Positions 17,972 to 21,392 of a stretch of 34,154 nucleotides of DNA are shown here, piece after piece. The stretch's first letter is position 1. Each line of letters begins with the position of its first letter. The notes under the pieces were generated by a model. That model had not been told where the DNA came from. It did not search any database and saw only the letters and a program-made list of their open reading frames with translations. The stretch comes from Kiloniellaceae bacterium (GTDB taxonomy: Bacteria; Pseudomonadota; Alphaproteobacteria; Kiloniellales; J153), in contig JAJFGN010000032.1 of assembly GCA_021776115.1 (NCBI GenBank), positions 1 through 34,154 of the forward strand, given 5' to 3'. The position numbers and the translations under genes were made by a program.

Positions 17972-19102
17972 TTAGGCCGCAGCCTGCTCGAGCTTACCCA
18001 TGAGATAATCTATATCCTCTCGGGAAAACGTAGACGCCGGGTCATCGAATTGCGTCAACATGCGCTCAAGCATCTTACTGATGAACCGAGCCCGGTCGTT
18101 GGGTCCGCCGTCATACTCCGTTTCCTCGGCCAGATCGACGCCCGCGCGAAAGGCCGGATACCAACGCTTCGGGAGACTGGCCTTCAGGTAGATCGATTGC
18201 AGCCCCAAACCTCCCTCGTCGTGAATTAGGATTCGGGCATTCGGCAAGGGAACTCCCGCGAGTTGGGCCAGCCCGCGTTCAAAGAAACCTATGTCCCCAA
18301 TACTGATGGCACGAAGCAGGAGCGAAGGTGTCAACCTCCGCTTGCGGTGCAGCTGACTTATCAGGTTGTCCAATTCTGTCTCGGTCGAACCGAATTGGAC
18401 CAAATTCATTGTTGCCCGTTCACGCGCCTGAAGTATCAGGTTGGTCGCGACATCGACAGGCAGCTCTTGTTTCTCCGAAAGGTAATCCTGCAATTTCTGC
18501 GTTACCGCCTCGACAAGCTGCTCGGAAATCGCGGCCGGCAAATTAGTTCGGCGCGATAAAGAATCGGAGACGCGGGTGCTACTTTCGTACTTGTCAATCA
18601 CTCGCCCGAGCGCGTTTTCGGTAAGCTCCGCCCCCTCGTTAGAGACAAGACGCGCAACCGCGGTCTCGTTTCCGGTGTCGATCAAAGCGTCGGCTATGAC
18701 GGCGGAAACGCGGGGGCGCTGCGCCACCGCAACTTGCCTGGTCGCGGAATGTCCACGCACGATCTCCAGCAAATCGGTGTCTGTCAAAACCTCGGAGAAC
18801 TTGATCACCGGCAGAGCGACCGAATCGACATCGTTCGCAAGAGACATTGCGACGTCATGCGGCAGGTCTGGTGAAGACTTTAGATGCGCCGCAAGAGATT
18901 CTCGGACAAGAACTTCGGTATCCTTAACCAAGGCCCGAAATATGTCTTCCGCGATTTGGCGCTCGCTATCGGTCAGCTCTCCGGTCGAGAACTGATCCGC
19001 AATTTTCCCTGTCGTAGCGGCCCGGTTCTGGACCGAGGGATTGGTCATGAGGGTTTTGACGTCTGCGGCACTGAGCCGCTGGCGAACGATTTCGTCTGTC
19101 AT
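17972..19102 (-). CDS. DUF2336 domain-containing protein, paralogue A
   Basis: A 376-residue protein made almost entirely of short helices, like HEAT-type repeats, in the DUF2336 family that is common in alphaproteobacteria and of unknown function. Helical units recur through the first 230 residues, with phrases such as NPSVQNRAATTGKIADQF, LPHDVAMSLANDVDSVALPVI and DTGNETAVARLVSNEGA. The second half (GDIGFFERGLAQLAGVP, LPKRWYPAFRAGVDLAEET) is also helical. No signal peptide or membrane span is seen. It is clearly homologous over its whole length to the next gene upstream (19301-20428), a tandem duplication. Its promoter region carries a CtrA-like box. It may be a protein-interaction scaffold in a CtrA-linked process such as cell cycle or motility; that is inference. 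Confidence 0.88.
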   Translation of the reverse strand: MTDEIVRQRLSAADVKTLMTNPSVQNRAATTGKIADQFSTGELTDSERQIAEDIFRALVKDTEVLVRESLAAHLKSSPDLPHDVAMSLANDVDSVALPVIKFSEVLTDTDLLEIVRGHSATRQVAVAQRPRVSAVIADALIDTGNETAVARLVSNEGAELTENALGRVIDKYESSTRVSDSLSRRTNLPAAISEQLVEAVTQKLQDYLSEKQELPVDVATNLILQARERATMNLVQFGSTETELDNLISQLHRKRRLTPSLLLRAISIGDIGFFERGLAQLAGVPLPNARILIHDEGGLGLQSIYLKASLPKRWYPAFRAGVDLAEETEYDGGPNDRARFISKMLERMLTQFDDPASTFSREDIDYLMGKLEQAAA

Positions 19103-19211
19103 CGCGTGCTACATCCGCAGTCCGTGGTTCCACACTTGCCGCGTACAGCTATCGGATCGGCTTGCCGCGATCCTAAACAGCCTTGGCCCCTACAGTATGC
19201 TTGTAGGACGG

Positions 19212-19226
19212 TTAATCGAGGATTAA
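19212..19226 (-). promoter_or_regulatory. CtrA-like box upstream of DUF2336 paralogue A
   Basis: On the minus strand the sequence is TTAA-TCCTCGA-TTAACC, an exact match to the alphaproteobacterial CtrA consensus TTAA-N7-TTAAC. It ends 109 bp before the gene start. After 10 more bases comes CATACT, a possible -10 element, which would centre the box on the -35 position, as in many CtrA-activated promoters. The same layout occurs before the paralogue. Confidence 0.7.
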
Positions 19227-19300
19227 TCCGCTATAAATCAATGATTTGAGTTGGGCCGGACCGCCTTGAATTAGCCCATATAGGACCGAGCCGGGAGCGA

Positions 19301-20428
19301 TCAGGCAGCGATTTGCCGAAGCTTGGCGATCAAAAACTCGATGTCCGAGGAACTGATTCTTTTAGACGGATCGGGAAAACGGGTCAGCACACGCTCCAGC
19401 ATTTTCTCGACATAGCGCTCCCGGTCATTGCTGCCGCCGTCGTAGTCGGTCTCAACCGCGAGGGTGATCGCGGCGCGAAACGCCGGATACAATGCCTTAG
19501 GCAGCTCAGCTCGCAAGTAAAGAGATTCGAGCCCAAGCATACTCTTGTCGTGAACCAAAAGCTGTACGTTTTTTAATGGCAGGCCCGTCAACTTCGCGAC
19601 CGCGCGCTCGAAGAACGTCAGATCGCCTGTGCACAACGCGCGCAACAGAAGCGAGGACGTCAATCCTTTCTTGCGGTGCAACTGATCGATCAAATTGTCG
19701 AGCTCGGCATCGCTGGAGCCATAATCCAGAAGGCTCATGATAGCCCGCTCGCGAACTTGTAGGATCAGATCGCTGGCGACATCGGGCGAAACGTCGTGTT
19801 TGTCGATAAGATACTCATGCAAGCGTTCGGACATCGCGGCAACCACGCGCTCGGAAATGGCCGGCGGAAGATCGGACCGCCGCGTCAAGGAATCGGTCAC
19901 CGGCGTGCTGCTTGAATAGTTGTCCACGACCCGGTCATAGGCCGCTTCACTGATTTGCGCTCCCTCGTTGCGCACCAAACGCGCCACTGCGTCTTCGTTG
20001 CCGGTATCCACCAAGACGTCCGACACCTGCTCGGAAACCTGGGTCCGTTGTGCGATGGCCGATTGCTTCGCCGGACCGTGGTCGCGAACGATGGTAATCA
20101 GATCCTCATCGGTAAGGACATCGGAAGCCTTGAGTATCGGCAAGGCAACAGAATCTACATCCCTTGCCAAGGTGAGGGCAACATCGTGCGGCAAGTCGGG
20201 ATTGGCTCTAAGGTGCGCCGACAAGGCCTGGCGCACACGTATCTCGGCATCCTTCGATAGAATACGGAAGATGTCTTCCGCGATACGGCGCTCTTCGTCG
20301 TTGAGCGTCGCAGCGTCGAAACCCTTAGCTATCTTGGTCGAGGCCGCGGTGCGAGCCTCGGGCGACGGGTCGGAGAGCAGACGAGTAACATCGTCCTTGG
20401 TTAACTGTACCGTGTTTTCTTCGATCAT
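19301..20428 (-). CDS. DUF2336 domain-containing protein, paralogue B
   Basis: A 375-residue all-helical soluble protein, paralogous to the downstream gene over its full length. Shared phrases include RRIAEDIFR, DLPHDVALTLARDVDSVALPI, TGNEDAVARLVRNEGAQ, LDNLIDQLHRKKGLT and the C-terminal YDGGSNDRERYVEKMLERVL. The N-terminal 230 residues look like repeated helical hairpins. There is no catalytic motif, signal peptide or membrane span. The gap to paralogue A is 198 bp and contains a separate CtrA-like promoter, so the two may be transcribed independently but under the same control. Function is unknown; retention of both copies with matching promoters suggests related but not identical roles, or dosage. 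Confidence 0.88.
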   Translation of the reverse strand: MIEENTVQLTKDDVTRLLSDPSPEARTAASTKIAKGFDAATLNDEERRIAEDIFRILSKDAEIRVRQALSAHLRANPDLPHDVALTLARDVDSVALPILKASDVLTDEDLITIVRDHGPAKQSAIAQRTQVSEQVSDVLVDTGNEDAVARLVRNEGAQISEAAYDRVVDNYSSSTPVTDSLTRRSDLPPAISERVVAAMSERLHEYLIDKHDVSPDVASDLILQVRERAIMSLLDYGSSDAELDNLIDQLHRKKGLTSSLLLRALCTGDLTFFERAVAKLTGLPLKNVQLLVHDKSMLGLESLYLRAELPKALYPAFRAAITLAVETDYDGGSNDRERYVEKMLERVLTRFPDPSKRISSSDIEFLIAKLRQIAA

Positions 20429-20538
20429 GTCAGATTTGCACCGTCTGTTTGGTTACCTCCCGAAACCATCCTGATTTGGATCGCACCGGACCGGCCGAAT
20501 ACCCGCCTAACAAGAGTAGAAGTATGACTTACTCTCGG

Positions 20539-20553
20539 TTAAGCAGAGTTTAA
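20539..20553 (-). promoter_or_regulatory. CtrA-like box upstream of DUF2336 paralogue B
   Basis: On the minus strand the sequence is TTAA-ACTCTGC-TTAACC, an exact TTAA-N7-TTAAC match in the same orientation as the one before paralogue A. It ends 110 bp before the gene start. It too is followed after exactly 10 bases by CATACT. The N7 and N10 spacers differ between the two promoters, while the half-sites, the CATACT and the spacings are kept. Confidence 0.72.
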
Positions 20554-20632: not shown

Positions 20633-20647
20633 GTTAACTCCGCGTTA
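20633..20647. promoter_or_regulatory. Additional CtrA-like box at the 3' end of the histidine-rich protein gene
   Basis: TTAA-CTCCGCG-TTAAC is an exact consensus match on both strands, 204 bp before DUF2336 paralogue B and covering the stop codon of the upstream gene. A further half-site, GGTTAAC, lies at 20614-20620. No CATACT follows. It may be an auxiliary site for the paralogue B promoter. Confidence 0.45.
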
Positions 20648-21392
20648 ACAAGGCACCGGCGATGGCCCGAACCTGATCCTCTACGGACACATCCATAAAT
20701 GAAGTCACCTCCAGTTCGCGATCCTCGTAAAGGTCACGGTCCGGATACCGGCTGGCCCAACTGGAAGCGGCGGCGTCCCGGGCGTCCAGCAAGCCCACAA
20801 TCTGCGGTTTGAACAAGCGGACCATGGCCGAAATCCAACGATTTACTGGCCAGGACGGCTGAGTGTGGTCGACTTTGAAGTAGTCCAACAAAATTTTGAC
20901 GTCTGGGGCCGTATACCAAACCTCGCCCGTGACCCAGCGATTTACCGTGAACAGGCGAAAGGGAAGGCCTTTGTTATCCATGGCGATTGCGATCAGGTGG
21001 CTGAGCGCGTCGTCCGGATCTTCGGGTGCCTCGTATCCCGGTACGGGGGCGGGCTTGATGCCCGGCGGCATGCCACGGGGCCGAACAAAAGTATGGAAAT
21101 GGCCGTGCTCGTCGCCAAACCGTTCTTCGACCGGGTGAGCGTGAAAATAGTACTGACTGTGGGTTTCGCGGTCATACACGTCGCCTGGCGGGTAGTGGTC
21201 CCACTCGTAGAAGGTTTCATGGCCTTTAATCAGCTCACCGACCAGGTTGTCGTCGGTCTTGGCCAAGGCACGGTAGATCTCCACAATCTCCTGCCCCGCT
21301 TCGGCCATGGTTTCCAAATCGCTCTGGTCCAAGCCATCGAGATCCAAGGCTAGATCGGTTCTAAACTCACGAATCGAAGTATCGTTGCGCAT
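20634..21392 (-). CDS. Conserved hypothetical protein, histidine-rich (DUF6969-like)
   Basis: A 252-residue soluble protein that I recognise only loosely as resembling the family called DUF6969. Its marked feature is a histidine cluster in the first half: HYPPGDVYD (66-74), YYFHAHP with H84 and H86, and EHGHFHTF with H96, H98 and H100. This resembles a metal-binding centre. The middle (DPDDALSHLIAIAMDNKGLP, about 126-144) and NRWVTGEVWY (151-160) also look conserved. No signal peptide or membrane span is seen. It is the last gene of the minus-strand run, 90 bp after the SUMF1-like gene, with a terminator-like hairpin on the opposite strand between them. Enzyme activity is unknown. Confidence 0.75.
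   Translation of the reverse strand: MRNDTSIREFRTDLALDLDGLDQSDLETMAEAGQEIVEIYRALAKTDDNLVGELIKGHETFYEWDHYPPGDVYDRETHSQYYFHAHPVEERFGDEHGHFHTFVRPRGMPPGIKPAPVPGYEAPEDPDDALSHLIAIAMDNKGLPFRLFTVNRWVTGEVWYTAPDVKILLDYFKVDHTQPSWPVNRWISAMVRLFKPQIVGLLDARDAAASSWASRYPDRDLYEDRELEVTSFMDVSVEDQVRAIAGALLTRS

Follow-up and report, generated by a model that had tools for sequence, protein, structure and literature searches.

Two tandem spbR genes of a Kiloniellaceae bacterium are each preceded by a TTAA-N7-TTAA box whose conservation upstream of orthologous genes supports its maintenance by selection and whose position fits a promoter activated by CtrA. In the order to which the bacterium belongs, the exact box was found within ~270 nt upstream of 50 of the 51 SpbR-equivalog genes sampled. 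A simple model would suggest that each tandem copy has its own CtrA-activated promoter, and that the SpbR protein then acts as a polar adaptor that is later cleared; we consider this model very probable. We infer CtrA binding, activation rather than repression, the timing of expression, the polar function, and proteolysis from the sequence of the window, which denotes the whole stretch of 34,154 nucleotides that was analysed, and from comparison with related genomes and published systems. Throughout, "the order" refers to a set of 58 related genomes; NCBI places the Kiloniellaceae in the Rhodospirillales.

Two tandem spbR genes and their predicted promoters

The features of the window that enter the analysis are the following.

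17972-19102, minus strand: gene A, an SpbR/DUF2336 protein of 376 aa with the C-terminus ...KLEQAAA (Pfam and NCBIfam profiles)
~19187, minus strand: predicted start site of gene A, giving an 85-nt leader
19194-19199, minus strand: CATACT of gene A, predicted -10 (sequence; -10 pattern in orthologous promoters)
19212-19226, minus strand: TTAA-N7-TTAA box of gene A, predicted CtrA site at -39 to -25 (exact scan; orthologue conservation)
19301-20428, minus strand: gene B, an SpbR/DUF2336 protein of 375 aa with the C-terminus ...KLRQIAA (Pfam and NCBIfam profiles)
~20514, minus strand: predicted start site of gene B, giving an 86-nt leader
20521-20526, minus strand: CATACT of gene B, predicted -10 (sequence; -10 pattern in orthologous promoters)
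20539-20553, minus strand: TTAA-N7-TTAA box of gene B, predicted CtrA site at -39 to -25 (exact scan; orthologue conservation)
20634-20648, no strand assigned: third TTAA-N7-TTAA, overlapping the stop codon of the DUF6969 gene at 20634-21392

The products of genes A and B, which are 57% identical in alignment, both pass the DUF2336 (PF10098) gathering cut-off of 34.6 bits (A, 241.5 bits; B, 257.5 bits). Both also score above the cut-off of 400 bits for the NCBIfam SpbR equivalog (NF052659; A, 471 bits; B, 455 bits), with matches that cover the full model (positions 1-358 of 358). Their closest named relatives are encoded in Kiloniellaceae metagenome-assembled genomes (88, 81, and 80% identity). 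The original prediction had spoken of an uncharacterised protein family; given the equivalog match, that description is outdated for this subfamily, on which a published Caulobacter study exists. In that study, by Wang and Bowman (2019, Mol Microbiol 111:1700), SpbR of Caulobacter crescentus is reportedly a cell-pole and chromosome-segregation protein, and proteolysis appears in the title. No paper using the name DUF2336 was found in the literature searched. Proteins A and B resemble Caulobacter SpbR in matching the equivalog over its full length, and differ from it in that they are encoded by two tandem copies, that proteins of the order end in KLxQ-[hydrophobic]-[AS]-A, and that their polar location is a prediction.

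The tandem pair is present in the window genome and in five named relatives (L040-L042, L044, L045), and each tandem copy seen keeps its own TTAA-N7-TTAA box. In the window's family, eight of nine genomes have two copies above the SpbR cut-off, and the one that does not is 59% complete. The immediate upstream neighbour of the pair in the window is the DUF6969 gene (279.9 bits), with FGE-sulfatase and Usp genes beyond it; none of these genes showed a link to the promoters.

Read in gene orientation, TTAA-N7-TTAACC-N10-CATACT precedes both DUF2336 genes, and the gap between box and ATG is 109 bp for gene A and 110 bp for gene B. This part of the original prediction proved exact to the base, both in the sequence and in an exact scan. 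The N7 is TCCTCGA in A and ACTCTGC in B, and the N10 is also unlike between the copies. Setting CATACT at -12 to -7 places the box at -39 to -25, with its centre at -32 and its 5' base at -39. The box had been described as centred on the -35; it does lie over the -35 in the geometry of CtrA-activated promoters, with the centre now refined to -32.

The window, at an A+T content of 39.7%, contains three TTAA-N7-TTAA sequences, compared with a mean of 0.04 in dinucleotide shuffles, and none of 100 shuffles reached three. The match between the two promoters is not due to chance. The earlier argument that three boxes exceed the chance expectation holds for the count itself, but the third should not be counted as a matching promoter. 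A -10 at the right distance from it was not found, and a box at the equivalent place was not seen in three same-genus genomes (L103, L104, L105), of which L103 retains a TTAACC half-site near the position. The third box was for these reasons rejected as a member of the same promoter set and is probably incidental or species-specific.

Across the 4.3 Mb genome, perfect matches to TTAA-N7-TTAA-N13-ATA[AC]T are confined to the two promoters of the window, a uniqueness that measures rarity and not independent support, because the pattern was written from these same promoters. When up to two mismatches are allowed, the pattern barely outnumbers its reversed control (55 versus 47 strand matches). 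A third match in the genome appears once the spacer may be one base shorter; this third match (L191, G000:C37:70777-70808) stands before an 88-aa ORF that has no Pfam family, and sequences similar to it match in the same-genus genomes G289, G290, and G291. The shorter pattern TTAA-N7-TTAAC yields 30 strand matches at 22 places, compared with 10 for the reversed pattern. Among the genes near these places (30 hand-picked ORFs were scanned) are motA, a bactofilin gene, an ORF adjoining a FlgL-like gene, and a MinD/ParA-like gene, and one place lies ~500 bp before mraW; transporters, metabolic genes, and many genes without an obvious link are found there as well. Enrichment for flagellar and chemotaxis genes was judged informally, from the presence of motA and a FlgL-like neighbour (below curated cut-offs).

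Conservation of the box upstream of spbR

The 51 SpbR genes above the cut-off in the order are distributed over 42 genomes and five family-level groups. While the exact box at spacing 7 is nearly invariant upstream of these genes, none of the other spacings between 0 and 15 is seen in more than three of the 51 upstream regions, and the sole gene that lacks the exact box, in G299, has a box with one mismatch. For comparison, only 5 of 187 other genes, taken from 33 named loci and the window, carry the exact box, with no preference for a spacing. Upstream distances for the SpbR genes and for the paralogues described below may be off by about 30 nt, because the gene start was approximated as 27 nt before the first matched profile position. 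The SpbR locus L232, which has an in-frame stop and no box, was kept in the SpbR box count.

The sequence between the half-sites varies, the N7 taking 27 forms among the 50 boxed promoters, while the half-sites and their spacing stay fixed, as the original prediction of selection had anticipated. Loss of the box upstream of orthologues had been named as evidence that would speak against that prediction, and conservation was found instead. It is important to note that genomes of one genus do not provide independent sequences, and a single N7 is common to 13 promoters. The C that follows the box is kept in 90% of 29 non-redundant spbR promoters. A -10 of the form [N]ATA[AC]T lies 10-12 bases past the box in 37 of the 50 promoters (after 11 bases in 20 and after 12 in 17), and at six wrong spacings the same form was found in 0-2 of the 50; the strict pattern is missing from the remaining 13. 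One-mismatch counts are weaker evidence than exact ones, since, once a mismatch is tolerated, spacing 6 too reaches high counts in the order (32/51 spbR and 24/30 ctrA genes).

When the promoter pattern was searched with two spacers in the 58 related genomes, 97 matches were found, compared with 21 for the reversed pattern, summed over genomes; of the 97, 37 stand immediately before a listed DUF2336 gene and share its strand. Several further matches were recorded. In L194 (G308:C303) the pattern precedes a gene for a ParA-type ATPase, and G302 and G297, of the same genus, contain matches with the N7 of L194, the downstream gene having been checked in L194 alone. In L195 (G305:C98) the pattern stands before each of two CHASE-domain genes, one of which encodes a histidine kinase while the other is truncated where the stretch ends.

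Beyond the order the box is largely degenerate, though its enrichment persists. Among 85 SpbR genes found elsewhere in the class, 16 carry the exact box within 270 nt upstream; within 160 nt, 15 genes have an exact box and 53 a box with at most one mismatch, compared with 0-2 and 7-17 genes, respectively, for other spacings. The 33 named relatives divide into 20 with an exact box within 350 nt, four with only a one-mismatch box, and nine with neither. The box was not found within 350 nt of spbR in cultured Novispirillum itersonii (two records), Rhodothalassium, or Thalassobaculum, and that of Azospirillum carries one mismatch. A class-wide sample of the best-scoring DUF2336 genes, in which the loci L081 and L098 are incomplete and mis-anchored, gave 6 exact boxes in 29 and is superseded by the SpbR-equivalog comparison. 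The counts for the named relatives, the class-wide sample, and the order overlap in part and are not independent. Given the 16 exact boxes in 85 genes and the nine boxless named relatives, the association between box and spbR is wide and is strict in this order only.

The box is also not exclusive to SpbR, as it occurs before DUF2336 paralogues that score below the SpbR cut-off. Sixty such genes (L312-L371), all from the genomes of the order, were picked in listing order, skipping those with stops, fragments, starts beyond profile position 20, and the window's own. Within 270 nt, 13 of them have an exact box, compared with up to six for other spacings; within 160 nt and with at most one mismatch, the numbers are 38 of 60 and 6-14. 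One of the three paralogues in the window genome itself is boxed, at 197 bp upstream. By this comparison, CtrA may also control members of the DUF2336 family beyond SpbR.

CtrA and alternative explanations for the box

The model depends on a CtrA protein being available to use the box, and the gene is present:

G000:C19:50671-51342: ctrA of the window genome, an NCBIfam CtrA equivalog at 427-428 bits (cut-off 350)

A genome without ctrA had been named as a finding that would count against the prediction. The best match to Caulobacter CtrA is approximately 70% identical, and at the threshold used the CtrA model has no second match in the window genome. In the order, CtrA was detected in 41 of the 42 genomes with SpbR, compared with 11 of the 16 without (Fisher p = 0.005, a test that ignores kinship); of those 16, two have SpbR-like genes just below the cut-off and two are only 69-72% complete. 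The exception, G340, has SpbR and a perfect box and gave no CtrA match at the threshold used; its assembly comprises about 190 contigs, and the missing CtrA is possibly an assembly gap.

The promoters of ctrA and motA provide a measure of how strictly the box is kept elsewhere. The region upstream of the window genome's ctrA has a one-mismatch box, TTAA-N7-TAAA. Among 30 of the 53 genes in the order above the CtrA cut-off, none has the exact box upstream and all 30 have one with at most one mismatch; at that tolerance, spacing 6 is matched in 24 of 30 and the remaining spacings from 3 to 12 in at most seven. In the window genome, an exact site lies 36 bp before the motA ORF. Across the order, motA, the only flagellar gene compared between genomes, has the exact box in 7 of 30 upstream regions and a box with at most one mismatch in 26 of 30 (30 of 48 matches listed). 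For the exact box, conservation is stricter upstream of spbR (50/51) than upstream of motA (7/30).

TTAA-N7-TTAA is the established CtrA site (PMC4287350 and PMC9437464). In Caulobacter, the 5' base of full CtrA motifs lies near -35, at -39 in the case of ctrA P2, and these motifs activate and drive expression in predivisional cells (PMC4287350). The window's promoters share with the Caulobacter full-site promoters of that work (n = 52 start sites) the half-sites, the spacing, the position over the -35, and the downstream -10, and their 5' base at -39 is that of ctrA P2; they differ in that both the box and its spacing from [N]ATA[AC]T are conserved before one gene family throughout an order, and in that the CtrA site is predicted. 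Activation by CtrA~P is the simplest reading, because the box at -39 to -25 is placed like the Caulobacter activating sites. CtrA~P would occupy TTAA-N7-TTAA across the -35 region, the 5' base lying at -39, and would recruit RNA polymerase to the CATACT -10. SpbR would then be made while CtrA is active, late and before division, would serve as a polar adaptor, and would subsequently be removed by proteolysis.

Alternatively, CtrA might bind the boxes and repress spbR, or contribute only as an auxiliary regulator, a possibility we regard as unlikely. It has precedents in Caulobacter, where CtrA half sites over the -10 repress and where a single full site can be activating for one promoter and repressing for a second, as at ctrA P2/P3 (PMC4287350). 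However, no TTAA is conserved over the -10 of the spbR promoters, and their conserved 5' base at -38/-39, with the box over the -35, corresponds to the activating position in the same source. The box could also be used by another response regulator with a CtrA-like recognition sequence, which appears slightly less probable still. Response regulators are numerous in the genome, which yields 39 matches to CtrA, many of them over the receiver domain only, and a second CtrA-like protein of 310-335 bits is found in four relatives (G295, G305, G311, G314). Against this stand the single CtrA-model protein of the window genome (428 bits), the identity of TTAA-N7-TTAA with the published CtrA consensus (PMC4287350 and PMC9437464), and the ctrA and motA promoters of the order, which, where tested, bear the same box in degenerate form.

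A more trivial origin of the boxes, through chance, through the A+T-rich composition of promoters, or through copying of one promoter along with the tandem duplication, has next to no likelihood. A+T-rich promoters do often contain TTAA, and genes A and B are duplicates. Yet the shuffles predict 0.04 boxes where three are seen, spacing 7 is singled out within the very same upstream sequences, background genes are rarely boxed, and the box also precedes single-copy spbR genes of other families, with unlike N7 sequences; chance and shared copying were rejected on these grounds. CtrA-dependent activation of each spbR copy is the reading retained below.

The SpbR protein and its predicted role in CtrA output

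An AlphaFold2 model of SpbR is all helical (pLDDT 78, pTM 0.58). A Foldseek search of the PDB with this model gave no match at E <= 0.001. VIA-align returned many HEAT/ARM rows, the best with Z 10.0 over 146 residues and an rmsd of 4.6, in a range (Z < ~13) that is common for repeats, and profile matches to the repeats of the PP2A A subunit are weak (best E 1.5e-4). The predicted all-helical architecture, with its low-significance HEAT/ARM-like neighbours, would fit an adaptor role.

A C-terminus ending in AA was found in 27 of the 31 SpbR proteins of the order with a readable end, mostly as KLxQ-[hydrophobic]-AA, in 18 of 29 outside the order, and in 26 of 38 among the named loci. In a control set of all stop-to-stop frames of at least 300 codons, coding or not and with SpbR included, 38 of 344 end in this way. 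ClpXP recognises ssrA-type degrons, and the KLxQ-[hydrophobic]-[AS]-A tail resembles such degrons. The tail would fit the proteolysis named in the title of the SpbR paper, although an ending shared by a family is by itself a weak indication. The CtrA of the window genome, as read, ends in AAAG and not in AA, and the degron idea does not rest on CtrA. DUF2497, which we take to be PopZ, is found in 88 of 90 SpbR-containing genomes (counted by eye) compared with 229 of 296 others, a co-occurrence that is confounded by reduced genomes lacking both genes.

These elements can be combined in a more far-reaching reading, a "SpbR pulse," which we put forward tentatively and hold to be possible rather than probable. 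Pulsed synthesis of SpbR would be a founding output of CtrA, its control at least as old as that of motility and stricter in this order. CtrA would switch on spbR by way of a full site that hardly varies, and the conserved C-terminal KLxQ-[hydrophobic]-[AS]-A tail, resembling a ClpXP (ssrA-type) degron, would serve to remove the protein, so that CtrA-driven transcription and proteolysis together would produce a short polar pulse. Tandem duplication in the window's family would have generated two forms of SpbR with the switch kept on each, perhaps one form per pole.

Known from previous work is the CtrA site itself; apparently new, from the promoter comparisons, are the CtrA-type promoter on spbR and its unusual conservation. 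No report of CtrA control of spbR was found in the literature searched, and given its limited coverage a missing report is no proof of novelty.

In the Rhodospirillales, CtrA controls motility (Greene et al. 2012; Bird and MacKrell 2011; both cited in PMC8116508), and PMC8116508 describes ctrA as dispensable in Rhodospirillum centenum and Magnetospirillum magneticum. The same source hypothesises that the primordial role of CtrA was motility, with cell-cycle control acquired later, and names DNA repair as another possibly ancient function. The present case shares with that motility control the regulator, the NCBI order, and an exact site at the window genome's own motA; it differs in that the predicted target is a cell-pole protein and that the exact box is stricter than that of motA. 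The finding matters because motility is the role hypothesised to be primordial, yet the promoter with the stricter exact box is that of spbR and not that of motA. The promoter finding supplies SpbR with a regulatory context, and CtrA may long have governed the cell pole.
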